A stretch of 64,000 bases of DNA. It comes from Spirosoma aerolatum. GTDB lineage: Bacteria; Bacteroidota; Bacteroidia; Cytophagales; Spirosomataceae. The DNA is taken from contig NZ_CP020104.1 in NCBI RefSeq assembly GCF_002056795.1, forward strand, positions 124,001 to 188,000. Reading direction: 5' to 3'. Positions 3,388 through 34,625 of this stretch are shown piece after piece. The position numbers and the translations under genes are program-made. The notes below the pieces were generated by a model. That model saw only the letters and a program-made list of their open reading frames with translations, searched no databases and was not told the DNA's origin. Within the stretch, counting starts at the first letter, position 1, and every line of letters starts with the position of its first letter.

Positions 3388-5682
3388 TTAGTTTTTAGAC
3401 CATTGAAAACTAAGGCCCAGGAAGTAGGAACGTTCGTAGCTGACAGGCGATGGTCCGCCCGAACTATGGGCGCCACCCGTGTCGGTTGAGGTGTTCGACA
3501 GGCGGGTAATGTTGAAGAGATTTTTGGCCCCCGTAGTCAGTGTCAGGTAGCTGGTAATGGGCTTGGTCAGGGTAAGATCGGCCCAGTGGAAAGCGGCTAT
3601 TTCGGTCAATACTGCCGAAACATGACCGTCGGCAGTGGCGGTTGCCAGGTAGCTGGGTCGTTTGCCCGTGTATTTATAGAAAAGGCTGACTTTCGTACCG
3701 AGTTTTTTCAGTGTATAGGTCAGATTCGTATTGACTTCCGGCGACCAGATGAACGTGGGTAGCTTGCCTTCTACATAGGTCGTGGTATCTGTTCCGGTGA
3801 GTAGATTGTTGTACCGACCGATGTATGAAAAACCTACTGTTGCCTGAAGTGCCTTCCAGGAAAAGACGTTTTCCAGCGTAACGCCCATTGTTTTGAATCG
3901 GTCAATATTGATGTTTGTCGTAATGCGAGGGTCGCTGGGATCGATTCCATAAGTGATCAGGTTATTAAAATCGTTATAAAAAAAGCCCAGTGTCGATTTG
4001 GCTTTCGGCATCGCCTGCCAGACCAGCGATCCGTTGAAACTGTTCGAGTTTTCGGCTTTCAGATTCGGATTGCCTCGGATGGAGTGGCTGGCGTCGAAGA
4101 AATTGAAATACAATTCTCGTAGAGCGGGTGAGCGAAAACCGCGTGCATAGGCTAAACGCAAATCCAGTGTGGGGGTAAGGGCAAATTTGGTGTTGAGTGA
4201 AGGAATAACCGGAGGAGCCTCGTAAACCGAATTTTTGATGAACCGCAGGCCCGGACGGATACTGATGCGAGTACTTGGATTGAGTGTCGATGACACAAAA
4301 AAGGCATAATCGTTGATGCCTGGTGATCCTAAAATCCGGTCTCCTGAAGCGGCATCCCGATTTATATCGATTCCGGGTTGTAGTGAAACGACTGGTGAAA
4401 CCTTATAGGTAGCCGTTGCCCGGTACGTTTGACTGGTAAACGTGGCAACATCCTGCTCGCCCTGTCCCAATGAAAGTGTGCGCCGATTGGTCGTTACATC
4501 CAGAATAGTCGTTTGTGTACGGCGCTGATAATCCGTAAGCGAAGCCTGCCCATTGAACTGAAGCCGATCGGTTACTTTCCAGTCGCTCTGTAGTTGATGA
4601 ACATATCGATTGGTGATGTATTTCTGGTCGCGAGCCTGATGGGTGTTGCTATTTTCAGCCCCCTGGCTCAGTAAGTCTTCTTTGAGCGCATCCAGCCGGT
4701 AATAGATATTGAGGTGTTCGGTACGATAACCAATTTTCCCATGACCAAACAGCTGATTTTTGGGTAGCCAGTCTTTTACTCGTCCTTCCGATAGACCTTG
4801 CCAGCCACCAAACGTATTATTGGTGACTCCGGCCGATGCGTTCCAGCCTTTCTTTTGCCAGGTAATTCCAGCATTCTGGATGTGTAGTCCCTGGTTGGTG
4901 AGTACGTTGTACTCTTTACCGGCTGTCTCTTCCTGAATGCGTGCGGTAACACTTAGCCGTTCGCGGCCTGGTTTTTTGGTGATAATATTGACAACCCCCG
5001 CCAGCGCATCGGAGCCATACGAAACCGACATAGGGCCTTCGACAATTTCGATCCGCTCGATGCTGTTGATGTCGATCTGATTTAGGCTTTCCCGTGTATC
5101 GCCCCGGTCAACCATAGGGAGGCCATCCAGCAAGATTTTGACGTTGCGGCCCGACATCCCCATCAGTTGTACATCGGTAGTGCCTAAGGTAAGGTCGTTG
5201 GAAAATCGGAAGCCCAGTTCGTTATTCAGAACGCCCATCACATTCGTTGCCGCCCGCAAACGAATGCGTTCACTATCAATCACCCGGACATTGTACACCG
5301 ATTTCTTCAGTGATTGGGGTTCATACTGTCCAGTCACGATAACTTCATTCAACTGGCTGGTAGCAGGTTGTAGTCTAACCGTGAATTGAACGGGCTGATT
5401 GTCTCGTAGCATAATAGCCTGTTGCAGCGTTGCATAGCCTATCATTGAAATTTGAAGATGATATTTCCCCGGAGCGAGTTCCGATAAGGTAAAATGTCCT
5501 TTTTCGTCGGTTGTCGTGCCTTTGGGAGCGTCAATAACCTGAATAGTAGCTAATGCGCCCGGCGTACCGTCGGCCAGTAAGACAGTACCCTTGATCGTAT
5601 GGTTCTGCGCCCAGACTACAGATGAGTTTAATAAGATCAGCAAGCACAATTGAAGAAAGCTATTCGTACAGACTTGTTTCAT
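3388..5682 (-). CDS. hmuR: TonB-dependent heme receptor (HmuR/HemR type)
   Basis: Outer-membrane gated barrel that imports heme with energy from TonB/ExbBD. In order: signal peptide ending in SSVVWAQ, a carboxypeptidase-regulatory-like beta domain (about 35-110), the plug with LNEVIVTGQY and a VSYGSDALAGVVNIITK strand, and a 22-strand barrel ending in an aromatic-rich SYFLGLSFQW. A FRSP box (ARGFRSPALRELYF) and an NPNL box (GNPNLKAENS) flank a histidine in ASHSIRG; FRAP/NPDL boxes with a histidine between them are the signature of heme receptors such as HemR. I chose the ATG at 5680-5682 (MKQVCTN), which gives a compact signal peptide; an in-frame ATG lies 15 bp upstream at 5697. First gene of the heme operon. 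Confidence 0.9.
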   Translation of the reverse strand: MKQVCTNSFLQLCLLILLNSSVVWAQNHTIKGTVLLADGTPGALATIQVIDAPKGTTTDEKGHFTLSELAPGKYHLQISMIGYATLQQAIMLRDNQPVQFTVRLQPATSQLNEVIVTGQYEPQSLKKSVYNVRVIDSERIRLRAATNVMGVLNNELGFRFSNDLTLGTTDVQLMGMSGRNVKILLDGLPMVDRGDTRESLNQIDINSIERIEIVEGPMSVSYGSDALAGVVNIITKKPGRERLSVTARIQEETAGKEYNVLTNQGLHIQNAGITWQKKGWNASAGVTNNTFGGWQGLSEGRVKDWLPKNQLFGHGKIGYRTEHLNIYYRLDALKEDLLSQGAENSNTHQARDQKYITNRYVHQLQSDWKVTDRLQFNGQASLTDYQRRTQTTILDVTTNRRTLSLGQGEQDVATFTSQTYRATATYKVSPVVSLQPGIDINRDAASGDRILGSPGINDYAFFVSSTLNPSTRISIRPGLRFIKNSVYEAPPVIPSLNTKFALTPTLDLRLAYARGFRSPALRELYFNFFDASHSIRGNPNLKAENSNSFNGSLVWQAMPKAKSTLGFFYNDFNNLITYGIDPSDPRITTNINIDRFKTMGVTLENVFSWKALQATVGFSYIGRYNNLLTGTDTTTYVEGKLPTFIWSPEVNTNLTYTLKKLGTKVSLFYKYTGKRPSYLATATADGHVSAVLTEIAAFHWADLTLTKPITSYLTLTTGAKNLFNITRLSNTSTDTGGAHSSGGPSPVSYERSYFLGLSFQWSKN

Positions 5683-21200: not shown

Positions 21201-22292
21201 TTAAGGTTCTGGTTCCAGCGCTGATGGGAGTACTTTTGCAAATCGCTCAGGTGGTAATTGCTGAATATTGAGTTGCGATGTATCACGCTCATCATGGATT
21301 GACTTGTACTCGGCCGCTGCCAATCGTTGACCGAAGGATGGTTTTATTTCATCACGTCGGTATTTATTAGCCGAGATAACCGAACTCCGCGAAATTTTCG
21401 TAGGCCCTTCAATGGTCCAGTCGCTGGTTTTCTTCTTATCGAAGCGGCAGGTATTGCAGATGAATTCAGTTACCTCGTTCCACTCGTTTTTCCGGGCTGT
21501 TACCCGAATCACATCCTCTCCCCGATACCAGAGCGTTACCTTTCCTGAGCAGGTTGGACAATCACGGTGTGCATCAACTGGTTTAGTGAACCAAACGCGG
21601 TTTTTGAATCGGTAGGTTTTATCGGTCAATGCACCAACTGGGCAAACATCAATTACATTTCCTGAGAAATCGTTATCGATGGCTTTTTCAATGTAGGTAC
21701 TAATTTCGGCAGCATCGCCACGACCCATTACACCATGCACCCGTTTGTTCGTAATCTGATCGGCCGTAAACACGCAACGGTAGCAAAGGATGCAGCGTGT
21801 CATGTGTAACTGGATGTACGGACCAATATCACGCTTCTCAAAAGTCCGCCGATCTTCTTCATACCGGGTGGTCTCACGGCCATGATCAAACGCAAAATTT
21901 TGCAAATCACACTCACCAGCCTGGTCACATACGGGGCAATCGAGTGGGTGATTCAGCAACAAAAACTCAACAACCCCTTTGCGGGCTTCTACTACCTGCG
22001 GGCTGGTTTCATTTTCGACTATCATGCCATCCTGCACGGTTGTCAGGCAGGAGGCAACCAGTTTAGGCATGGGACGAGGGTCTTTGGCCGACCCGGCCGC
22101 TACCCGAACCAGACATGCCCGGCACTTGCCACCACTGCCTTTCAGGGGCTGATAGTAGCACATAGCCGGTGGAGCTACTGCCGGACCAATTTTACGAGCA
22201 GCCTGCAAAATGGTAGTGCCTGGCTCTACTTCGACCTCAATCCCGTCTATTGTGACTTTCAGTAATTGCGGCTTTATTTCCTGTTCAGCCAT
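21201..22292 (-). CDS. nuoG: NADH-quinone oxidoreductase subunit G, short form
   Basis: Carries the N1b, N5 and N4 iron-sulfur clusters of the NADH-oxidising arm. A 2Fe-2S ferredoxin domain (about 10-95) has cysteines in MCYYQPLKGSGGKCRAC; the His-Cys3 cluster region includes DCPVCDQAGECDLQ; the 4Fe-4S region has MTRCILCYRCV and a DVCPVGALTDK block. A CPTC / CNTC cysteine group lies near residues 245-285. The protein stops at 363 residues, without the roughly 400-residue molybdopterin-oxidoreductase-like half of E. coli NuoG. Short NuoG is, to my knowledge, normal in this phylum, so this is not a fresh truncation. It follows the inserted membrane-protein gene by 43 bp. Confidence 0.92.
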   Translation of the reverse strand: MAEQEIKPQLLKVTIDGIEVEVEPGTTILQAARKIGPAVAPPAMCYYQPLKGSGGKCRACLVRVAAGSAKDPRPMPKLVASCLTTVQDGMIVENETSPQVVEARKGVVEFLLLNHPLDCPVCDQAGECDLQNFAFDHGRETTRYEEDRRTFEKRDIGPYIQLHMTRCILCYRCVFTADQITNKRVHGVMGRGDAAEISTYIEKAIDNDFSGNVIDVCPVGALTDKTYRFKNRVWFTKPVDAHRDCPTCSGKVTLWYRGEDVIRVTARKNEWNEVTEFICNTCRFDKKKTSDWTIEGPTKISRSSVISANKYRRDEIKPSFGQRLAAAEYKSIHDERDTSQLNIQQLPPERFAKVLPSALEPEP

Positions 22293-22335: not shown

Positions 22336-23859
22336 TTAAATATGCTTAAAAATCTGATAGCCACTTATTTCTTTCTGGAGCACATAATCTTTTGGATTGA
22401 ATGTATACTCAAAAGCGAAATAATAAAGTGGTTGCTTTTTAGGCGCAATAATAAATTTAATAGAACCTTGCTTTACCAGCTTTTCGAACTGGCTAAAATC
22501 GTGTTTTTTGCCAATATACAGAAACCGGATAATGTCATCGGTATAGGCCAACTGGTGCCGAAACAGCATTTGCTGAAGCAGCCATCCACGGTAATTATCA
22601 CCCATGAGCGCTACCACATAATCCTGTTTGCCTAGTTGAGGCTCAACAAACGATTTTACGAGCATTTCATCCCGATACTGCCGGGCATAATACCCATAGT
22701 CCGTATTCAGATGATTGTCTAGCTGTTGGCTGGCAAAATAGAGCATTGTCATGCAGAGCATTGCCGGAAACAGATAGCGACCTAAGCTGCCCGTATGCGG
22801 GAGCTTTATTTCACCACAAAAATACCAAAATATTATGAGTAAGCCTGTATACGCGAACTCATGATAATAGCCCACAGCAGCACCATGTTTAAAAGCGGTT
22901 ACTGTAGCGAACCCAAAAAAGAACATTGCTGCCAGGCTAAGAAACTGTTGCCGAACATACAGGCTCGTAAACAGCCATTTAAGACTGATAAGCCATGTCA
23001 CTGCAATCAGAAGACTGGCTGCCGGAATCAGGTAGCGAAACGTGTACCCATAAAACCAGCCCGGTGAAAGCGGTAAGGTGACACTGATGAACAGATTCTG
23101 AAAGAAAATGCCCATATGCCCTTCATCGCACAGCAATGTCAGGACCAGGAATAGCGCTGCCATGATCCCTATTGTACGAATCAGAACGCGCCACTGAGCC
23201 ATAATGAAGAGAAACCCCAGGATTACGGCGATGTGTATCATACCACTTTGCTTCACGAAAAAAGCAATAACGGCGAGCAACGCTGCACTTATCCAATACC
23301 CATTCCAGATCGTTGGCCTCTTAAGTCCTTCCAGCGCGCAATAGAGCAAACCTGTTGTGCAAAGAAAGAGTAAGCTATCGACTCGGGAATTTGTCAAATG
23401 CCAATGTTGTAAAACACCAAAGACGAGACAGCAAAGGACTATATTCTGTAACAGCTGAAGTCTCAATTGGCGCATACCCGTGGCAAAAACCGCCAGCATC
23501 GACACCATCACCAGCGCAAATGATACCATTCGACTCAATAACTGAATTCGAAATACCTGCGTCGGGTCCCAGCCGATTAGCTTGTAAAGGGTTCCGACGA
23601 GCCGATAATAAAGGGGGGCGTATTGGGTAACCCAGAAAGGCGGAACTTCCGGGTTATAATACAAAGGGCGACCGTCGGCCACTAACTGAATGCCATACGT
23701 TGTACTCCGTTCTGAACCCGAAATATCGGGCAAATAGCTCGTAGCGAATTTTACCTTCACAAAAAAGATAACAACCGTACAGACCAGACAAAAAATCAGC
23801 GTAAGTAACCAGGTCTGGGCTTTCAGAAGGTTATATACGCTGACTAGAAAAAGCGGCAT
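22336..23859 (-). CDS. Polytopic membrane protein, GT-C glycosyltransferase-like
   Basis: 507 residues with about ten hydrophobic helices and a soluble C-terminal region (about 400-507). An acidic loop after helix 1 (SYLPDISGSERSTTYG) and the PPFWVTQYAPLYYRLVG segment resemble the first periplasmic loop of GT-C enzymes, which move sugars from polyprenyl phosphates. I do not see a decisive family motif, so the call rests on topology and that loop. It sits between nuoF (24-bp gap) and nuoG (43-bp gap) on the same strand, so it must be co-transcribed with complex I, with which it has no known connection. It could also be an uncharacterised membrane protein of another kind. Confidence 0.5.
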   Translation of the reverse strand: MPLFLVSVYNLLKAQTWLLTLIFCLVCTVVIFFVKVKFATSYLPDISGSERSTTYGIQLVADGRPLYYNPEVPPFWVTQYAPLYYRLVGTLYKLIGWDPTQVFRIQLLSRMVSFALVMVSMLAVFATGMRQLRLQLLQNIVLCCLVFGVLQHWHLTNSRVDSLLFLCTTGLLYCALEGLKRPTIWNGYWISAALLAVIAFFVKQSGMIHIAVILGFLFIMAQWRVLIRTIGIMAALFLVLTLLCDEGHMGIFFQNLFISVTLPLSPGWFYGYTFRYLIPAASLLIAVTWLISLKWLFTSLYVRQQFLSLAAMFFFGFATVTAFKHGAAVGYYHEFAYTGLLIIFWYFCGEIKLPHTGSLGRYLFPAMLCMTMLYFASQQLDNHLNTDYGYYARQYRDEMLVKSFVEPQLGKQDYVVALMGDNYRGWLLQQMLFRHQLAYTDDIIRFLYIGKKHDFSQFEKLVKQGSIKFIIAPKKQPLYYFAFEYTFNPKDYVLQKEISGYQIFKHI

Positions 23860-23883: not shown

Positions 23884-25224
23884 TTAAATCAGAGCCATCT
23901 CACCCCGATATACGGCACCTGGCTGGGTTGCTTCGGAGGGGTGGTCGATATGCCACTGAAATTCGTCGCGGAAATGCCGGATCGCACTGGCTACTGGCCA
24001 GGCAGCAGCATCGCCAAGCGGACAAATCGTATTTCCTTCAATCTTTTTAGCCACATCGACCAGCAGATCAATGTCCTGTTGATGACCGTGACCGTATTCG
24101 ATGCGATGCAGTACTTTTTCCATCCAGCCTGTTCCTTCCCGACAGGGGCTGCACTGGCCACAGGATTCGTGGTGATAGAACCGGGAGAAGTTCCACGTAT
24201 TCCGAACAATACAGGACGTTTCGTCAAACACGATGAAACCACCTGATCCAAGCATGGTTCCTGTAGCAAACCCGCCGTCCGACAGGGACTCGTAGGACAT
24301 TAAGCGTTTCTCGCCGTTGGCCAGCGTCAAGGCCAGGTTGGCTGGCAAAATGGGTACTGATGAGCCTCCTGCTACTAAGGCTTTGAATTTATGCCCCGGC
24401 CGGATACCGCCACACCATTCATCGGCAAAGATGAAATCTTCGACAGGGACTCCCAGTTCGATTTCGTAAACACCCGGTTTATTGATGTGCCCCGATGCCG
24501 AAATCAACTTTGTTCCCGTACTACGGCCAATGCCGATGGCTGCATAGGCATCCCCACCGTTGTTAACGATCCAGGAGGTAGTGGCGATGGATTCTACATT
24601 GTTAACCACCGTTGGGCACTGATAAAGGCCTTTAACAGCGGGGAACGGCGGTTTATTCCGAGGATTGCCTCGTTTACCTTCCAGCGATTCGAGCAAGGCC
24701 GTTTCTTCACCACAAATGTAGGCACCGCCCCCGGGCTGAACAACCAACTCAAGATCGTAGCCACTACCCAGAATGTTTTTGCCCAGGAAGCCTTTGGCTT
24801 TGGCTTCGGCAATAGCTTTTTCGAGGATATGGATGACGTACATCAATTCGCCCCGTACGTAGATGAATGACTTATTAGCCCCCAAAGCGTACGACGAAAT
24901 AATCATGCCCTCAATGAGTAAATGAGGGATGTTCTTCATCAAGTAGTGATCTTTAAAGGTGCCCGGCTCCGATTCATCGGCATTACAGACTAGATAGCGG
25001 GGAACTCCTTCGGGCTTAGCCAGGAAGCTCCATTTCATGCCCATCGGGAAGCCTGCGCCACCCCGGCCACGAACACCTGCTTTTTTTACCTCTTCAACAA
25101 TGGCATCGGGTGTCATGGTTTTGAGGGCCTTTTCAACAGCCGTATACCCGCCCTGTTTCCGATAAACATCGAACGTCTCGATGCCTGGGACGTTAATATG
25201 CTCGGTTAATATTTTAGTTGCCAT
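23884..25224 (-). CDS. nuoF: NADH-quinone oxidoreductase subunit F
   Basis: Binds NADH, FMN and cluster N3 at the tip of complex I. The glycine-rich FMN site is RGRGGAGFPMGMKWSF (about residue 55), the NADH region GGGAYICGEETALLES (about residue 165), and the 4Fe-4S ligands are in HESCGQCSPCREGTGWM (about residue 345). From the ATG at 25222-25224 (MATKILTEHINV) the protein has 446 residues and starts 7 bp after the nuoE stop; an upstream in-frame ATG at 25251 would overlap nuoE. The following gene is the unrelated membrane protein, not nuoG. Confidence 0.95.
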   Translation of the reverse strand: MATKILTEHINVPGIETFDVYRKQGGYTAVEKALKTMTPDAIVEEVKKAGVRGRGGAGFPMGMKWSFLAKPEGVPRYLVCNADESEPGTFKDHYLMKNIPHLLIEGMIISSYALGANKSFIYVRGELMYVIHILEKAIAEAKAKGFLGKNILGSGYDLELVVQPGGGAYICGEETALLESLEGKRGNPRNKPPFPAVKGLYQCPTVVNNVESIATTSWIVNNGGDAYAAIGIGRSTGTKLISASGHINKPGVYEIELGVPVEDFIFADEWCGGIRPGHKFKALVAGGSSVPILPANLALTLANGEKRLMSYESLSDGGFATGTMLGSGGFIVFDETSCIVRNTWNFSRFYHHESCGQCSPCREGTGWMEKVLHRIEYGHGHQQDIDLLVDVAKKIEGNTICPLGDAAAWPVASAIRHFRDEFQWHIDHPSEATQPGAVYRGEMALI

Positions 25225-25231
25225 GAGTGGA

Positions 25232-25735
25232 TTATTTCGACAGTTCGTCAATGATTTCGTCTACACGCTCGTTGGTCAGGTTCATGTAGTATTTTTCCCG
25301 AATCTGGAAAACGGGACCCATTCCGCAGGCGGCCAAACACTCCACTTCTTTCAGCGTGAACCGGCCATCGACCGTTGTTTGCCCTGCATCAATGCCCAGG
25401 CGCGTTTTCAGATGTGCATACACTTCTTCCCCGCCCATCAGGCAGCAAGGGCCTGTTCGGCAGTATTCGATGACGTGCTTACCGACCGGGTTAAGGTGAA
25501 ACATGGTGTAAAACGTAGCCACTTCATATACCTCGATCGGCTGGAGGTCGAGCATACGGGCCACGTAGTCCATCCCTTCAACACTTGTCCACCCTTCCTG
25601 TTCCTGTAACAGATGCAATAGTGGAAGTAAAGCGGATTTCTGTTTACCTTCCGGGTAACGGGAAATTATTTCCTTCGCCCGTTCCAGACGGTCGGGCGTA
25701 AATTGTATAGCAGAATGGTTTGTTTCTGTTGTCAT
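25232..25735 (-). CDS. nuoE: NADH-quinone oxidoreductase subunit E
   Basis: Thioredoxin-fold 2Fe-2S subunit (N1a) of the NADH-oxidising arm. The four cysteine ligands are visible: CRTGPCCLMG (about residue 93) and VECLAACGMGP (about residue 133). The helical N-terminal part begins with FTPDRLERAKEIISRYPEGK. I chose the ATG at 25733-25735 (MTTETNHSA), which lies 4 bp after the stop of hicB; an ATG at 25750 would read into the end of hicB and add MPIKC. This means nuoE translation begins right at the toxin-antitoxin unit. Confidence 0.93.
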   Translation of the reverse strand: MTTETNHSAIQFTPDRLERAKEIISRYPEGKQKSALLPLLHLLQEQEGWTSVEGMDYVARMLDLQPIEVYEVATFYTMFHLNPVGKHVIEYCRTGPCCLMGGEEVYAHLKTRLGIDAGQTTVDGRFTLKEVECLAACGMGPVFQIREKYYMNLTNERVDEIIDELSK

Positions 25736-25739
25736 ACAT

Positions 25740-25955
25740 TTAATAGGCAAAAACCATTGTTTCGGCTTCTGAATTCGCAGTTGGAATAGGATGCCCTTCT
25801 AGTTCTAAACCTTCTATATGAAATTGAATTCCTTCATAAATCAAGCGTTCGACTTCCTCTTTGGTCGGCGCAGTGGCTACACAGCCAGGTAAATCCGGCA
25901 CATAAGCTCCATACCCGGATGGCGTCTTTTCAAATATGACCAAATACTTTTTCAT
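25740..25955 (-). CDS. hicB: HicB-family antitoxin, short form
   Basis: 71-residue antitoxin with the partial RNase-H-like fold of HicB: YLVIFEKTPSGYGAYVPDLP followed by GCVATAPTKEEVERLIYEGI. It should bind and block the HicA ribonuclease. The usual C-terminal ribbon-helix-helix or HTH DNA-binding domain is missing, so this antitoxin probably cannot repress its own promoter. Its start overlaps the hicA stop by 4 bp and its stop is 4 bp from nuoE. The pair lies in the reading direction of the nuo operon, and I see no separate terminator. Confidence 0.85.
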   Translation of the reverse strand: MKKYLVIFEKTPSGYGAYVPDLPGCVATAPTKEEVERLIYEGIQFHIEGLELEGHPIPTANSEAETMVFAY

Positions 25956-26149
25956 CGATCAATCTGAGCCTGTTTATAAATACTATTTAGCGTTCCAACA
26001 GGAACATCGTCGTTTAAGCTATGATAAGCGATGGTTACTAGGCCCGTTTTTGTTTTATGCTTAAATTGACGATGACTTCCTCGATGCCTGACCTGATACC
26101 AGCCATCGTCCTCAATTATACGCACAACTTCGCGGAACTTTATGGCCAT
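25952..26149 (-). CDS. hicA: HicA-family mRNA interferase toxin
   Basis: 65-residue double-stranded-RNA-binding-like toxin that cleaves mRNA in a translation-independent way. The family core is complete: FREVVRIIEDDGWYQVRHRG, then GSHRQFKH with the catalytic histidine (His26), and a late GTLNSIYKQA helix. It begins 2 bp after the nuoD stop and overlaps hicB by 4 bp. The intact catalytic histidine and lack of frameshifts suggest a working toxin. Expression of complex I would then always express the toxin and antitoxin with it. Confidence 0.87.
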   Translation of the reverse strand: MAIKFREVVRIIEDDGWYQVRHRGSHRQFKHKTKTGLVTIAYHSLNDDVPVGTLNSIYKQAQIDR

Positions 26150-26151
26150 AC

Positions 26152-27384
26152 CTAGGCGTCTAACTCCCCGGCAATCACGTTCATACTACTCATGATCACA
26201 ATGGCATCGGATAGAGTCAGCCCTTTACACATTTCCGGATAAGCCTGGTAATAGATAAAACAGGGCCGACGGAAGTGCAGACGATACGGAGCTCGTCCGC
26301 CATCACTGATCAGGTAAAAGCCCAACTCGCCATTGCCTCCTTCAACTGCGTGGTACACCTCACCAACTGGTGCATCGATCTCACCCATCACAATTTTGAA
26401 GTGATAGATCAGGGCTTCCATGTTTTTGTACACTTCCTGCTTCGGAGGCAGGTAGTACTGTGGAGCGTCGGCATAGTAGGAACCTTCTGGCAGGTTATTG
26501 ATAGCCTGCTCGATGATTCGCAAACTCTGCCACATTTCGGCATTTCGAACCATAAAGCGGTCGTATGTATCGCCACTTTGACCGATGGGGATGTCGAATT
26601 CGAAATCCTCATACGACGAGTAGGGATTCATAACCCGAACGTCATAATCGACACCGGCGGCACGTAGGTTTGGGCCGGTAAATCCATAACTCAACGCCCG
26701 TTCGGCTGATATACCACCAACACCAATCACCCGATCCATGAAAATCCGGTTGCGGTTGAAGAGGTTTTCAAACTCGGTCAGTACTTTGCGGAAGCGTGGA
26801 ATTAATTCTTTGATCTTACGGATAGCTGTAGGGGACAAGTCCCGCTCCATGCCACCGATACGCCCCATGTTCGTCGTCAACCGGGCACCGCAGACTTCTT
26901 CGTAGATTTCGTAGATGTTTTCGCGCTCCTGATAGATGTACAGGAAGCCGGTAAACGCACCCGTATCAACACCAAGAATACCGTTGCAAATGAGGTGGTC
27001 GGCCAGGCGAGCTAACTCCATCATAATGACCCGAATGTACTGAGCCCGCTTGGGTATGTCAATCCCTAGCAATTTTTCGACCGTCATATGCCAGCCCATG
27101 TTGTTAATGGGCGACGAACAGTAGTTCATCCGGTCGGTAAGGGTCGTAATCTGGTAAAAAGGGCGTCGTTCGGCAATCTTCTCGAACGCCCGGTGGATAT
27201 AGCCGATGGTTTGCTCGCCCGATACGATTTTCTCTCCGTCCATTTGCAGAACGTTCTGAAAAATACCGTGTGTAGCCGGGTGAGTAGGACCGAGGTTCAA
27301 TGTGGTCAATTCGTTGACGTACTGAACCGGTCCTTGTTCGGCAGGTAAGTTTTTATTAGCTATATCGAGTTCTTCAGAAACCAT
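26152..27384 (-). CDS. nuoD: NADH-quinone oxidoreductase subunit D
   Basis: 49-kDa-type subunit that forms the quinone cavity with NuoB. Signature LNLGPTHPATHGIFQNVLQM (about residue 30) with the conserved His of the quinone site, ERRPFYQITTLTDRMNY, and the C-terminal YRLHFRRPCFIYYQAYPEM block plus DAIVIMSSMNVIAGELD at the end. 410 residues is normal. Not fused to nuoC, which is a separate gene upstream. A 2-bp gap leads into hicA. Confidence 0.95.
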   Translation of the reverse strand: MVSEELDIANKNLPAEQGPVQYVNELTTLNLGPTHPATHGIFQNVLQMDGEKIVSGEQTIGYIHRAFEKIAERRPFYQITTLTDRMNYCSSPINNMGWHMTVEKLLGIDIPKRAQYIRVIMMELARLADHLICNGILGVDTGAFTGFLYIYQERENIYEIYEEVCGARLTTNMGRIGGMERDLSPTAIRKIKELIPRFRKVLTEFENLFNRNRIFMDRVIGVGGISAERALSYGFTGPNLRAAGVDYDVRVMNPYSSYEDFEFDIPIGQSGDTYDRFMVRNAEMWQSLRIIEQAINNLPEGSYYADAPQYYLPPKQEVYKNMEALIYHFKIVMGEIDAPVGEVYHAVEGGNGELGFYLISDGGRAPYRLHFRRPCFIYYQAYPEMCKGLTLSDAIVIMSSMNVIAGELDA

Positions 27385-27470: not shown

Positions 27471-27977
27471 TTATCGTCCAAACAATGCATCTATTTTATC
27501 CTGCCGGGTGCTGTCTTCGAGTGGGTACTCTTTCCGCATTGGAAAGTAGTCCATCTCTTCCATGTTCAAAATCCGGCGTAAATCGGGATGGCCGTCGAAA
27601 ATAATCCCGAACAGATCAAACGTTTCACGCTCCATCCAGTTGGCACTGGCAAACAGGCTTGTCATCGTCGGAATATGGACATCGTCGGCGGCAAGGTACA
27701 CTTTTATACGTAGCCGGAAGTTATTGATTAGGCTATGTAAGTGATAGACGACGCAAAATTCCTTACCGGCCGAATCAGGGTAATGAACAGCCGTAATATC
27801 GGTCAAAAACCCGAACTGATAGGTAGAGTGCGACTTCAGAAATGAGACAAGTGGAATAATCTGCTCACGGCTGGTCGAAAACGTCAGCAGGTTATACGGG
27901 TCATCGAAGTCGGAAACGGCTTCGCCGAATTGGTTGATGATGTTCTGCGCAACTTCCTCGTTGGTCAGCATTGGCAA
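27471..27977 (-). CDS. nuoC: NADH-quinone oxidoreductase subunit C
   Basis: 30-kDa-type peripheral subunit of complex I. 168 residues. The family signature is WMERETFDLFGIIFDGHPDLRR (about residues 113-134; Asp, Gly and His conserved), followed by MEEMDYFPMRKEYPLED. It is a separate protein, not a NuoCD fusion. ATGs at the first and third codons both give a plausible start. Inverted repeats occupy the gaps on both sides. Confidence 0.95.
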   Translation of the reverse strand: MPMLTNEEVAQNIINQFGEAVSDFDDPYNLLTFSTSREQIIPLVSFLKSHSTYQFGFLTDITAVHYPDSAGKEFCVVYHLHSLINNFRLRIKVYLAADDVHIPTMTSLFASANWMERETFDLFGIIFDGHPDLRRILNMEEMDYFPMRKEYPLEDSTRQDKIDALFGR

Positions 27978-29267: not shown

Positions 29268-31478
29268 TTATCGATTGATGATGACGCGTTTGGATAGGTC
29301 GAACCCGTTCGAATGAACGCGAATGAGATAAACTCCCTGTGCCAGTCCTGATAAATCGACTACCTTCCGTTGGTCAAGTAGTGGAATCTGGCTTGAATAG
29401 ATTTTTTGACCCGTTAACGTAAATACGTCAATATCGGCATTTTTTAAATCTTCCAGGGTTTCAATAGCTACTGTCCCATCAACTGACGGATTAGGGTAAA
29501 TAACCAGTCCTCCGTTAGAACGGTCGAATGTGAACGGTTTAGGCGCACTGAAGGTTGAATAACAGGTCAGATTATTCCCGTTAGCCAGTGCAAACGTAGT
29601 TTTTGTTCGCGCTGAATAATTGGCCGATACCACTACTTTAATTACGGCATCGTTTTTAGGAAGCACTTCTGTATTGTTACGTCGCCAATCGAATAAATCA
29701 GGTTGCCCGCCGGTAGGTGTAGGTAGTACCGCCTGTAAGCTGTAAGGGCCTACTTGCTCAATACTCGGTACAGGGACTTTGGGCCGAACCGTTAGATTGA
29801 TACTCGCTGTCTGGCTGGACTTACAGCCGTATACACTCTGTGCCTGTAACGTGTAGGTTCCGGCTTTACTCAGTGTAATGGTTTTACCAATCGATGTTGT
29901 GCCGCTTGCACTCCATATACCTGTGCTGTTGGCACTCGTATTCGCAAGAAAGACTGCCGACGAATCAGCACAGATTTGTTGTTGTGTATCAACTACTTTT
30001 CCAGGCTGGCTAGCCAGAGAAATAGTGGGTGCTGATGGCTGAATAGGACTTTGTACGTCAAGAATTGGCGATAAATAGGTTCGTCCACCTCCATCTTTCA
30101 ATGTAGCCTGATAAGTGCCCGGCTGACTAACGGTAATACTTTGTGTCGTCTGCCCTGTATTCCAGGTATACGATTTATAAGCGTTTGGCAAGGTGAGTGT
30201 TAAAGCGTTGCCCGAAGTGCCACAGGTGACATTAATAGCTGGTTGGAGCAGTGGAGGCAGCGGTAGTGAACTTGCAAAAAAGGCGGTGTTTAGGCTTTCG
30301 TACCAGGCTTGACCCAGATCAATAAGCCCTTTGTCGCCTGGATTATTAGTTGTACGGTTCCCGAAGTGAACGTCGTCGAAGCGGGGAATCTGGATATTAT
30401 CCGTAAAAGGGCCTGCAAATACGTTATTGGCGTAGGTGTTGATCACATCGTTTTGAGCCTGGATAACATCCTGGCTTACCGAATTGTTGCTGTACGACGA
30501 CCGGGCCAGAACCCAGGCTGGATAATTCTGGATGTCGGCACGGGTCTTATTGACCAGATACTGCATGGCAGTAGCATACTCTTTACGAGGAGTATGTAAT
30601 GGGAAGTTGTCGAATTCACCCTGCTGCCACAATACGGCACGTAGGCCAAGCAGTGAGCTATAATAGCGTAAGGATACAAGCAAATTGCCATAGGGCATGC
30701 CTACTGGAAAGTTTTCATCAGGCGTACCTAGGGCAAATATCTGTTTAGTGATTTTGCCATCGGCACTTTCGGTCCAGTTTTGAATCGTCGTTGCTTCCCA
30801 GGCCGTATTGATAAAGAGTACCGGAACATTATACTGCTTCACCAACAGATCGCCAAGATAGCCCCAGCACCAGGCACTCTGACCTCGAGGGCCGATAATG
30901 GCCGTTGCTGTTAATTGCTGGAAGGCGGGGGCTGGTGGATCAGCGAGTGAATTTTTGGCGATATTATCGTACGCCAGGCAATTGACCCGGTCATCATTGG
31001 CGGCCGTTGCGCCATAATTTAAGCCAGCCCTTGTGATGAAACCTTGTGCGTTGGACTGTCCCGTTATAATGAATACTTCGCCAACTCCTATTTTCCGAAC
31101 AACATCACTGCCTATTACATTGCCACCGGCAAATGCCTGAACTTCCAGCCGATACCAGCCACCTTTTGCTTTTAAAGAACCCTGGAAAATACCACCCTGT
31201 GGATTCTTTTGTATAGTAACCCAGTTCGTACCTAATCCTTGCCCAGCCACCTCTTCCTGAACGCGAGCCTGAACACTGTCGACGGGCTGGTATATACTTC
31301 CTGAAAGATAAAACGTACAGGTGTTATCATTCGCACGTTGGAAAATAGCCCGCGTAACCGGATAAGTAATTTTTATGATAGAGTTGGTACTTTGAGCGGA
31401 TACCCACGTACTCATCCACGTAAGGCAACATACTAAACCATGTACTAATAAATAACGATTGCTCATTTTATCTTTCAA
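29268..31478 (-). CDS. Secreted SASA-family esterase with T9SS sorting domain (paralog 1)
   Basis: Exported carbohydrate esterase of the sialate-O-acetylesterase (SASA/DUF303, CE6-like) type. Signal peptide ends in TWVSAQ. The SGNH-fold nucleophile motif is VFIITGQSNAQGF (about residue 135), a conserved VLWQQGEFDN comes later, and the DxxH motif is FDDVHFGNR. C-terminal to this are Ig-like segments and a T9SS type A sorting domain starting at YPNPSVDGT and ending in RVIINR. It likely removes O-acetyl groups from plant or algal polysaccharides at the cell surface. Adjacent to a longer paralog (165-bp gap). A start at codon 5 (31466) is also possible. Confidence 0.82.
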   Translation of the reverse strand: MKDKMSNRYLLVHGLVCCLTWMSTWVSAQSTNSIIKITYPVTRAIFQRANDNTCTFYLSGSIYQPVDSVQARVQEEVAGQGLGTNWVTIQKNPQGGIFQGSLKAKGGWYRLEVQAFAGGNVIGSDVVRKIGVGEVFIITGQSNAQGFITRAGLNYGATAANDDRVNCLAYDNIAKNSLADPPAPAFQQLTATAIIGPRGQSAWCWGYLGDLLVKQYNVPVLFINTAWEATTIQNWTESADGKITKQIFALGTPDENFPVGMPYGNLLVSLRYYSSLLGLRAVLWQQGEFDNFPLHTPRKEYATAMQYLVNKTRADIQNYPAWVLARSSYSNNSVSQDVIQAQNDVINTYANNVFAGPFTDNIQIPRFDDVHFGNRTTNNPGDKGLIDLGQAWYESLNTAFFASSLPLPPLLQPAINVTCGTSGNALTLTLPNAYKSYTWNTGQTTQSITVSQPGTYQATLKDGGGRTYLSPILDVQSPIQPSAPTISLASQPGKVVDTQQQICADSSAVFLANTSANSTGIWSASGTTSIGKTITLSKAGTYTLQAQSVYGCKSSQTASINLTVRPKVPVPSIEQVGPYSLQAVLPTPTGGQPDLFDWRRNNTEVLPKNDAVIKVVVSANYSARTKTTFALANGNNLTCYSTFSAPKPFTFDRSNGGLVIYPNPSVDGTVAIETLEDLKNADIDVFTLTGQKIYSSQIPLLDQRKVVDLSGLAQGVYLIRVHSNGFDLSKRVIINR

Positions 31479-31643: not shown

Positions 31644-34625
31644 TTACAATCCGAGGATTATTCGCTTTGAAACGTCGAAACCCGGCGATTGAACCCGAAG
31701 AATATAAGAACCCGACGGCATTGCTGTTAAAGTGAGTTGTTTTCGATCATCAAACGTTGGTACCGCTGTCTTCAATACTACCTGCCCCGTGAGCGTGTAA
31801 ATGGTAAGCGTAGCATTCGTTAGGTTCTCTTTTGTTTCAATCGTTAAGATTTTGTCAGGATTTGGATTTGGGTACACACTTAATCCTTTGTCATTCGGGT
31901 CAATCGTAAAGGTTAGTGGGGCCGATGGCTGGGAGAAGCAGGTCAGCGTTCCAGAATAAACGATCGATGCACGAGCAGTGTACGTGCCTGATTCACTCGC
32001 TTTTATGCTGGAGGTCTGTACGGCCAGAGAGTCGTTGTCACGACGCCAGCGAAATATGGTGCCATTTGTTGAACTGATGGCTTGTAATGTATATGTACCA
32101 GCTACATTGATTGTTGGGGCTGGAGGCAAAGGTCTTAATTCAACAGTTGTTGAGCCTGCCTGGGCTGACACACAGCCATTCACATCCCGAATTTTAGCTG
32201 AATAAGTCCCCTCAGTAGTTCGGGTAATGCTCTGCGTCGAATCGCCCGTGCTCCAGAAAACCGTATACTGTCCATCTACGCGTAAGGTAACTTTATCTCC
32301 CTCGCATATGGTCGATGATGGGTTGGCTACAATGGTTGGAGTAGCTGGCAGTGGGTTTACTTTTACAGGAATAACCGATGAGTAGGGCGACAGACAATTA
32401 TTTTCGTCCCGGGCCTGTACAGCATAATTGCCAGACGTGGTGACCACAATTGATTTATCCGTTTGGCCACTCGACCAGACTACGCCTACGGCACTGGCCG
32501 CGTTTAGAGTAACCCGGTTTCCTTCGCAAAAGGTTGTTATACCCGCAGCCGACACAGTAGGTGTTTGGGGCAATGGATTTACTTTAATAATCACTTGGTC
32601 AGACTCCTCGGACGTACAGCCAAACTCGTTGCGGGTACGAACCGCAAAGTTGCCCGACTGGTTCAGGGTGATGCTCTGTGAGGTCTGACCACTGGTCCAC
32701 TGGTAGGCTACGTTCTGGGGAGCTGTTAGGGTTACGTTACGATCCGCACAAAAAATAGTCGGTCCATTGGCCGAAATAACGGGCTTGGCTGGTACAGGGT
32801 TTGCCGTGACAACGATGGTATTCGATTGGGCAGATGTACAGCCGTTTTGATCAGTAACTGTCAGAAAGTAGAAGCCAGACGATCCAATAGTGGCTACTTT
32901 ACCATTTTGACCGTCGCTCCAGTTATACTGTACGTTATCACTACTGGCACGGAGCGTTGTATTATCTCCCTGGCAGAAGGTCGTTGACTTTTCGTTGGTG
33001 ATTGTTGGCGTGGCAGGTAATGGATTAACTGTCACATTGAGGGTATTTGAGGTAAAGTCACAACCACTTATATCTCGGTAACGTACAAAATAGATACCCG
33101 CTGTAGTCGTAGAAAATCCTCGGGAGGTACTTACCGTGGTATTATTTTGCTGATTGATCCAGGTAACATTATCATAGTTACTTGTTAGGGAAAGGCTACT
33201 GCCTATACATACCGAAGGAGGACGATTGCCAACGACCAAGGCAACAGGGGCATCAGAGACTCTGATTTGGCCCGTATAAAATGTGTTACCTTTCGAATCT
33301 TTAACTTTAGCCCGGTAAGTTCCAGCTCCTTTTGTGATTGAACTCCCCGACTCACCCGATTCCCATTGTACGGTTGGATAGTTTCCGGCAACCGTCAATT
33401 TCAGGTTATTGCTGCCAGCACATTCTACACTGACGGTTGGTGCCAAAGCAGGGCTAATTGGCGTTGAGGTTTGAAAAAAGGCATCGGTTAAGCTGCCATT
33501 CCAGGCGCCAGCAACCTCAACAAGGCCGTTATAATCGAAGTGAACGCCGTCGGGATCATTTAAAGGCGGTCGTGTACGCGGTACTTGGATACCGTCGGTA
33601 TTAGGGCCTGCAAATACATTAGATACGGTACTTATGACCTGGTTCTGCCCAGCAATGATTTGTTGGTCTGTACCCCCTATAAAATCACCGTAGCTAGCTC
33701 TGGCAACCATCCAGGACATGTTCTGACCATAATCCTGACGAGCCTGATTAATCACAAACTGTAAGTCGTTGGCGTAGGAGTTTGCGCTGGTATTGATCAA
33801 ATTATCTGCTTCGCCCTGATGCCATAGTACAGCACGCACACCCAGCATGTTGGCGTAATACTGGAGAGCCAGTTTTAAGTTGATATAAGGTTGGCGTGGA
33901 CTATAGGGGGCTCCGCTGTACACGCTGTAAGCTACTCCTCCTTCGGGTGCACTTTCCCGCCAGTTCCGAACAGCCGTTCCTGTGAAAGCGCCGTTGAAGA
34001 ACATGATAGGAACGTTGAGTCGCTTTACCAATAGATCGCCTAACAAGCCCCAGCACCAACTTCCTACCCCTCGAGGTGCAATCGAAAATCCGTCCGTATT
34101 GTCCAGCATGGAAAAAACGGGAGTTGGAGGGTCATTTGGAAAGCCGTCTCCTGGATACTGGTAATTTACACAATTTACCCGGTCATTTTGAGGGTTTGGC
34201 GCACTTTGATGAACGCCCTGTGCATTGGATTGCCCCGCTACGACAAATACCTCGCCAATACCTACTCGCTCAATGGTGGTTACATTCCCAACCTGCTGGT
34301 CATTATTCATACCACGCACCTCAAGATTATACCAACCGCCTTTTCCTTTCAAATCGCCTGCAAAGACGCCCCCTGTAGGATTATTCTGAATAGCAGCCCA
34401 ATCAGTTGACGTACCCTGACCGTCGCGTGCTTGTATACGAGCTTCTATGCGGGTTACTGCTGATGTATAATAGCCTGTAATTCGAAAAGTTGCTTCATTT
34501 GACTGATTACGTTGAAAAACAGCCCGGCTCACGGGGAAAGACACCTGAATCTGTGCTGTTGCCAGAAAAGATAAGAGTAAACAGACTGTTGTACCGAGCG
34601 TCCTGAAAAAATGGTTCATAATCAT
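31644..34625 (-). CDS. Secreted SASA-family esterase with Ig-like repeats and T9SS domain (paralog 2)
   Basis: 993-residue paralog of the previous gene with the same order of parts: signal peptide (SFLATAQ), SASA domain with VFVVAGQSNAQGV, VLWHQGEADN and DPDGVHFDYNG, then an array of Ig-like repeats, and a C-terminal T9SS domain (YPNPNPDKILTIETKENL, RIILGL). The repeats, at about residues 455-830 (roughly 32130-33260), are about five units of about 80 residues, each with NPLPxTPT and an FCxGxxxTL core and a paired later cysteine. They lengthen the stalk between catalytic and sorting parts. It is encoded 46 bp after obg, with no terminator recognised between the two, so readthrough from obg is possible. 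Confidence 0.82.
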   Translation of the reverse strand: MIMNHFFRTLGTTVCLLLSFLATAQIQVSFPVSRAVFQRNQSNEATFRITGYYTSAVTRIEARIQARDGQGTSTDWAAIQNNPTGGVFAGDLKGKGGWYNLEVRGMNNDQQVGNVTTIERVGIGEVFVVAGQSNAQGVHQSAPNPQNDRVNCVNYQYPGDGFPNDPPTPVFSMLDNTDGFSIAPRGVGSWCWGLLGDLLVKRLNVPIMFFNGAFTGTAVRNWRESAPEGGVAYSVYSGAPYSPRQPYINLKLALQYYANMLGVRAVLWHQGEADNLINTSANSYANDLQFVINQARQDYGQNMSWMVARASYGDFIGGTDQQIIAGQNQVISTVSNVFAGPNTDGIQVPRTRPPLNDPDGVHFDYNGLVEVAGAWNGSLTDAFFQTSTPISPALAPTVSVECAGSNNLKLTVAGNYPTVQWESGESGSSITKGAGTYRAKVKDSKGNTFYTGQIRVSDAPVALVVGNRPPSVCIGSSLSLTSNYDNVTWINQQNNTTVSTSRGFSTTTAGIYFVRYRDISGCDFTSNTLNVTVNPLPATPTITNEKSTTFCQGDNTTLRASSDNVQYNWSDGQNGKVATIGSSGFYFLTVTDQNGCTSAQSNTIVVTANPVPAKPVISANGPTIFCADRNVTLTAPQNVAYQWTSGQTSQSITLNQSGNFAVRTRNEFGCTSEESDQVIIKVNPLPQTPTVSAAGITTFCEGNRVTLNAASAVGVVWSSGQTDKSIVVTTSGNYAVQARDENNCLSPYSSVIPVKVNPLPATPTIVANPSSTICEGDKVTLRVDGQYTVFWSTGDSTQSITRTTEGTYSAKIRDVNGCVSAQAGSTTVELRPLPPAPTINVAGTYTLQAISSTNGTIFRWRRDNDSLAVQTSSIKASESGTYTARASIVYSGTLTCFSQPSAPLTFTIDPNDKGLSVYPNPNPDKILTIETKENLTNATLTIYTLTGQVVLKTAVPTFDDRKQLTLTAMPSGSYILRVQSPGFDVSKRIILGL

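Follow-up and report, generated by a model that had tools for sequence, protein, structure and literature searches.

A Class 1 HicAB toxin-antitoxin pair at a recurrently occupied junction of the complex I operon in Spirosoma

The 64,000-nucleotide stretch of Spirosoma aerolatum DNA analysed here (the window; positions 124,001 to 188,000 of contig NZ_CP020104.1) carries on its minus strand an operon for respiratory complex I (nuo), and between nuoD and nuoE of this operon lies a HicA-HicB toxin-antitoxin pair, hicAB. We consider it probable that the pair is a Class 1 HicAB occupying a slot in the operon, driven by nuo transcription, exchanged among relatives by recombination and kept as a selfish or defensive passenger. 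The observations on which we build are the anatomy of the locus, the recurrence of the pair at the same junction, its alternation there with a gene of the DUF29 family, a mosaic tract of low divergence around it, and a low ratio of nonsynonymous to synonymous change (dN/dS). The module itself is of a known kind; the new element is the recurrent, exchangeable junction within the complex I operon.

The HicA-HicB pair and its class

The two genes fit between their neighbours with almost no spare sequence. hicA (25952..26149, minus strand, as are all features below) encodes 65 amino acids (aa) and starts 2 bp (26150..26151) after the end of nuoD (26152..27384); its stop overlaps the start of hicB (25740..25955, 71 aa) by 4 bases (25952..25955); and hicB ends 4 bp (25736..25739) before nuoE (25232..25735). 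The initial annotation, made from the sequence alone, had proposed a complete pair with this compact spacing, and the distances it gave were exact to the base. Both proteins matched Pfam above cut-off: HicA the family HicA_toxin (PF07927, 75.2 bits, cut-off 27) and HicB the family HicB_lk_antitox (PF15919, 35.5 bits, cut-off 27), the latter at profile positions 7-60 of 123 only. Pfam gave no further domain in the 71-aa HicB and no helix-turn-helix (HTH) or ribbon-helix-helix (RHH) at its C-terminus, in agreement with the earlier proposal that the antitoxin lacks a DNA-binding domain. NCBIfam at an E-value of 0.001 matched neither protein, and the PADLOC anti-phage defence models at the same threshold returned 0 families for HicA, HicB and one DUF29 protein. 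In a search of the PDB, HicA matched 4c26, 6g26 and 9svk; its His26, part of a GSH motif, aligned with a histidine in 9svk and with alanine in the 4c26 and 6g26 chains, which we take to be His-to-Ala variants. Residues 5-61 of HicB matched the HicB3 structure 4p78. According to PMC11594946, characterised HicAs need the histidines equivalent to His26 to be toxic or to act as RNases.

These features place the window pair, by its sequence, in an already described kind, Class 1 HicAB. As set out by Gerdes (2024, mBio, PMC10865869), Class 1 HicB proteins have 67-97 aa and no DNA-binding domain, and Class 1 HicA proteins typically have 60-85 aa. The window pair is like them in the order hicA then hicB, in both sizes, in the 4-base overlap and in the missing DNA-binding domain, and the catalytic histidine is present. 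The same text describes Classes 1 and 2 as the most prevalent HicAB modules, then without experimental analysis and with their regulation left as a question; the initial annotation had treated the missing domain as unusual, which this prevalence contradicts. The window pair differs from that account in sitting within the complex I operon and alternating with DUF29, whereas the available part of the account describes no pair in a core metabolic operon. HicAB modules with a DNA-binding HicB, such as those of E. coli, Y. pestis (HicAB3) and B. pseudomallei, resemble the window pair in HicA family, GSH histidine and N-terminal HicB region, but PMC11594946 describes their HicBs as autorepressors acting by means of an HTH or RHH domain, which the window HicB lacks. 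The autoregulated Classes 3 and 4 are recognised by such a domain at the HicB C-terminus; the window HicB ends at 71 aa without one. A protein search yielded 4775 HicB relatives; the 120 listed were all 63-91 aa long, and the nearest organism-named ones among these 120 came from Spirosoma. As to carriage by phages, one relative at 47% occurred in viral contigs.

Occupants of the nuoD-nuoE junction and of other nuo junctions

A search of the nuoD-nuoE junction in Spirosoma and relatives had been proposed with the initial annotation. Among 36 Spirosoma-genus genomes, hicAB was found at this junction in five: the window's own genome (G000), Spirosoma sp. 48-14 (G027), G032, G002 and G015, with the same order and near-identical spacing in the latter four. 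The same arrangement in five assemblies rules out an assembly or annotation artefact, a reading in whose favour nothing was found and to which we give practically no weight. HicA matches of at least 60% identity in the 222 family genomes lay without exception at this same site.

The other 31 of the 36 genus genomes have no hicAB at the junction. Four of them (G020, G004, G024 and G011) carry there an intact DUF29 gene (PF01724) of ~145 aa, identified by Pfam in G020 and G004 (71.7 and 71.6 bits) and by similarity in G024 and G011; two have short remnants (G010 and G033, the latter judged from its 3' end alone); and 25 have no gene. With these numbers, and with broken hicA frames in two of the five carriers, the earlier suggestion that losing the nuoD-nuoE link would be costly to the cell is left without support. 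A second sample, which overlaps the 36 genomes, consisted of the 80 best named loci found when genome contigs were scanned; here intact DUF29 occupied the junction in 8, a remnant in 2 and hicAB in 1 (again Spirosoma sp. 48-14). The 8 include Larkinella terrae, L. humicola, Fibrisoma montanum and Arcicella aurantiaca. Overall, DUF29 was found in 28 of the 222 family genomes and nowhere in the window's own genome. The nuoD-nuoE junction is thus a repeatedly filled slot, and DUF29 is its commoner occupant in the family.

Some empty junctions may retain a deletion scar from this occupancy. When the spacers of 19 of the 25 empty Spirosoma junctions (all except G005, G017, G019, G021, G029 and G030) and that of Fibrisoma limi were compared with the 3' end of the G020 DUF29 gene, those of G007, G012, G014 and G016 matched at 12-13 of 15 positions, a level reached by 0 of 2000 shuffles in each case, and the remaining 16 of the 20 spacers matched at 2-9 positions. 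DUF29 is a single helical protein for which no relation to HicAB was detected, and relatives carry it at the junction that hicAB fills in the window. It could not be assigned to a fold of known function: the best PDB structure match was 3fcn, a function-unknown protein (E 0.2, TM ~0.5), and a sequence search of the PDB gave no relatives, just unrelated matches at E of at least 0.39. The open literature searched yielded nothing on DUF29, nothing relevant on hicAB or other toxin-antitoxin genes in a nuo or complex I operon or on HicA in Spirosoma, and, among the 12 matches listed of 68 and beyond the papers cited here, nothing relevant on HicAB in Bacteroidetes or with homologous recombination.

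Insertions also occurred at other junctions of the operon. Flagging junctions more than 120 bp over the lower quartile across the 36 genomes, we obtained 26 of 317 in nuoA-J (2 at B-C, 11 at D-E, 2 at E-F and 11 at F-G); two control clusters gave 1 of 614 (S10-L17, ribosomal) and 1 of 212 (murD-ftsZ). The counts are phylogenetically non-independent, which weighs against this part of the reading, and S10-L17 is an extreme case to choose as a control. MraZ, looked for as a control anchor, was not found in the 36 genomes, and MurG was taken instead. The single flagged ribosomal junction contained no inserted gene. The flagged murD-ftsZ junction (G032, L300) contained a 134-aa open reading frame (ORF) between genes that we take to be ftsW and murG; by eye, this ORF resembles 23S-rRNA intervening-sequence proteins.

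The inserted genes are of several types. At nuoB-nuoC we found a DUF29-like gene in G016 and extra length of an unexplained kind in G028. At nuoC-nuoD, a Cytophagales metagenome-assembled genome (L156) has a ParE_toxin gene (50.5 bits) and, as its partner, a gene weakly resembling RelB (22.1 bits, below cut-off). In S. profusum (G004; L091, ~4508-4970), nuoE and nuoF are separated by an intact 66-aa ORF and by a ParE_like frame (24.8 bits, cut-off 24.4) that a stop codon interrupts; the same junction of G015 has a 66-aa ORF resembling the first of these two genes; Larkinella has a PhyH protein there (59.1 bits in the one tested), with similar ORFs in Flectobacillus and others; and further ORFs at this junction are weakly Uma2-like (20.2 bits in one, below cut-off, and no match in the other). 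The nuoF-nuoG junction carries either relatives of DUF29 (one was run against Pfam and scored 30.7 bits) or a 507-aa protein. The window has the latter (22336..23859), which has no Pfam or NCBIfam match and is hydrophobic by eye; comparable ORFs (505-514 aa, their likeness judged by eye or with tblastn) lie at nuoF-nuoG in other Spirosoma and in Dyadobacter. DUF29 genes are often tandem, as in L122 (inside the nuoF-nuoG junction) and, by coordinates, in G102, G180, G183 and G226. A wider view of this variety, to which we give a low probability, is that the nuo operon of Spirosomataceae is a permanent exchange slot for small cassettes of an addiction or defence type, its junctions being contested by HicAB, a ParE-like pair and DUF29, with the nuo genes serving as recombination arms and steady respiratory transcription replacing autoregulation; in that case DUF29 would do the work of a toxin-antitoxin module without having been recognised as one.

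In the window the minus-strand order is nuoA-B-C-D, hicA, hicB, nuoE-F, the 507-aa ORF and nuoG-H. Pfam identified nuoC (27471..27977, 30-kDa subunit), nuoD (49-kDa subunit; Complex1_49kDa, 371 bits), nuoE (2Fe-2S_thioredx, 188.8 bits) and nuoF (23884..25224); nuoA, nuoB, nuoG and nuoH were named by eye, nuoG (21201..22292, 363 aa) also by position. Between nuoA and an Obg-like GTPase ORF are two large secreted-looking ORFs (29268-31478 and 31644-34625) with C-terminal sorting-like ends, named by eye.

Proposed recombination and history of the insert

The comparison of the window's genome with Spirosoma sp. 48-14 (G000 and G027) suggests how the pair may move. Synonymous difference was 0.45 in nuoA and 0.39 in nuoB, 0.14 in nuoC, 0.25 in nuoD, 0.10 in hicA and 0.04 in hicB, and 0.41 in nuoE and 0.39 in nuoF. 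Third-position differences followed the same course (nuoC 0.09, nuoD 0.17, hicAB 0.04; nuoA, B, E, F and H 0.24-0.29). For the segment running from the nuoB end to the nuoE start the value was 0.12, against 0.21 over nuoA-J with hicAB, and 0 of 1000 permutations gave one as low; nuoC thus lies within the low-divergence tract, which stops at the start of nuoE. Over its first ~70 codons the G027 nuoE resembles that of the DUF29-bearing G020: counted in blocks of 25 codons, the two differ at 2, 2 and 1 third positions, and after that at 9, 11 and 11; against G000 the start of the gene shows 2, 7 and 11. Since G027 is G000-like on the left, in nuoC and most of nuoD, and G020-like in the nuoE start, it is a mosaic with a border beside the insert. 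Most simply, the insert would move as part of a recombination tract whose anchors are nuo genes, although direction and donor would be matters of inference. The initial annotation had judged the pair not to be a typical mobile arrival; this stands insofar as no transposon-like arrival signs appeared in the junctions compared, and it needs amending insofar as the pair has apparently spread by homologous recombination with its nuo flanks.

The order of events can be approached from a tree of ribosomal and murD-ftsZ genes from 33 genomes (G002, G021 and G033 were without the ribosomal locus). In this non-nuo tree the window's clade reads (G004 DUF29,(G020 DUF29,(G000 hicAB, G027 hicAB))), each node with 100 in the Shimodaira-Hasegawa-like approximate likelihood ratio test (SH-aLRT). 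The G020 DUF29 is 81% identical to the Fibrisoma montanum copy and 73% identical to the Larkinella humicola copy at the same junction, and therefore belongs to a family-wide lineage. DUF29 is thus the likelier earlier occupant in the window's clade, with hicAB arriving later; in our proposal hicAB would have replaced DUF29 via homologous recombination, with nuoC-nuoD (nuoD forming the left arm) and nuoE as the arms. The hicAB label requires at least 3 changes for 4 carriers on the non-nuo tree and at least 4 changes for 5 carriers on the nuo-gene tree of 36 genomes, and because of these changes gains, losses and exchange of the pair appear to be mixed.

Several points weigh against parts of this reading. 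Between G000 and G027, nuoI is also low (0.16), and stretches matched by no permutation occur in other genome pairs too, so that recombination or uneven constraint extends beyond the cassette. No donor was identified, and the nuoE segment of G027 could be a separate event. The G004 DUF29 is just 48% identical to that of G020, so the two may not descend from one resident copy, and G004 falls outside the window's clade on the nuo tree; for these two reasons the order DUF29 then hicAB stays an inference. Finally, G002 and G015 have broken hicA frames.

The last point bears on whether the pair is a decaying neutral passenger, with an inactive toxin and genes that persist since deletion is slow. 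The ParE_like frame of S. profusum, with its internal stop beside an intact 66-aa partner, would suit this explanation as well. However, hicA is intact in three of the five carriers, and the nuoE frame of G015 is broken too, which marks that assembly as noisy. Between G000 and G032, hicA differs at 0.089 of nonsynonymous sites (pN) compared with 0.77 of synonymous sites (pS, saturated); its dN/dS, scorable for G000-G027 alone, was 0.13. Over the 10 carrier pairs, hicB dN/dS was 0.04-0.07 in seven, 0 in G000-G027 and not computable in two. We regard decay as quite unlikely on this evidence. Among G000, G032, G015 and G002, hicB synonymous difference (pS 0.44-0.79) was like that of the nuo genes. 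Hence hicAB as an old, constrained resident of the genus fits the sequences better than a fresh arrival from afar, and independent recent landings at one site are unlikely: the copies are alike, and hicB pS, G000-G027 apart, resembles the nuo genes.

Transcription of the pair and its place in the cell

We scanned for promoters with a Bacteroidota-type motif of assumed consensus and with a sigma-70 motif. Neither gave a match on the coding strand from 25735 to 26400. The Bacteroidota-type motif matched twice in the window, the chance level, and not near the junction. The sigma-70 scan gave 5 matches against a shuffle mean of 7.6; one of them (27034..27062, read 27062-27034 on the coding strand, 10 of 12 positions) lies within nuoD, ~0.9 kb before hicA, and is probably due to chance, though it may be an internal promoter. 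Neither scan exceeded shuffled sequence, and both have little power either way. The sigma-70 consensus fits Bacteroidota poorly. Dependence of hicAB on the nuo transcript is likely, as is translational coupling across the 4-base hicA-hicB overlap.

The nuoD match nevertheless counts the other way, since hicAB might be driven by a promoter inside nuoD, largely independent of the nuo promoter. Some class-level relatives of the pair stand alone or beside oppositely directed genes, those of the latter kind (as in L364) probably with their own promoter, which likewise speaks for such autonomy, and E. coli hicAB has its own promoters, according to PMC10865869. Given one match in a scan that fell below its shuffles, with a consensus ill-suited to the phylum, and given the empty scan around the junction, we find an internal promoter rather doubtful and continue to prefer transcription within the nuo message.

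The wider context indicates how general such an arrangement may be. Class-level HicB relatives (E of at most 1e-12) occurred in 13 of 395 genomes besides the window's own. Among their 14 loci, only three (L363, L368 and L375) follow a co-directional ORF at 50 bp or less, and the remaining 11 include some whose hicA frame is cut or not resolved. A general rule placing Class 1 HicAB close behind a host gene was rejected on this count. Within Spirosoma, Class 1 pairs also lie 47-49 bp (to the ATG taken) after an aspartate/ornithine carbamoyltransferase gene in G031, G013 and G032 (loci L008, L009 and L022; the carbamoyltransferase family was confirmed for G013, L009, only), and a reversed pair lies directly before the SRP54 (ffh) gene in G032 (loci L018 and L031, the family confirmed in L031). 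Riding a host operon thus appears, from gene order, to be frequent in the genus and no rule for the class.

These contexts also bear on whether hicAB has been co-opted as a respiratory-linked regulator, in which a drop in nuo transcription would let HicB decay and HicA slow growth. The position between two nuo genes, the lack of an own repressor, the purifying selection on hicB and a site kept filled with hicAB in five genomes are what such a role would lead one to expect. Yet the pair is patchy: 31 of 36 genomes are without it, sister genomes differ, DUF29 can stand at its site, and two carriers have a broken hicA. The same cassette type behind a carbamoyltransferase gene in three genomes further makes the link to respiration non-specific. 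We consider co-option improbable.

In the reading that we favour, a HicAB without its own repressor would be transcribed mainly within the nuo message and its translation coupled to that of its neighbours through the nuoD stop 2 bp before hicA, the hicA-hicB overlap and the hicB stop 4 bp before nuoE. HicA is predicted to be an mRNA-cutting toxin blocked by HicB, their ratio presumably being set by translation and antitoxin turnover rather than by autorepression. Purifying selection would keep the pair in the role of a passenger, selfish or defensive, and not in that of a complex I subunit.

A comparable case was reported by Makarova (2009, PMC2701414) in Thermus thermophilus, where the lysine operon of strain HB8 contains an inserted MNT-HEPN module that HB27 lacks. 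Both are predicted toxin-antitoxin modules in a metabolic operon, there present in one strain and missing in another. The Thermus module is of another family, whereas the nuo junctions recurrently take several cassette types with evidence of recombination. For some modules, the locus offers a testable answer to the question of how Classes 1 and 2 are transcribed, namely by riding a host operon, and close species pairs with and without the cassette are available for testing this. It also suggests that ordinary recombination between alleles of a core operon may spread toxin-antitoxin genes as its passengers, with no mobile element involved.

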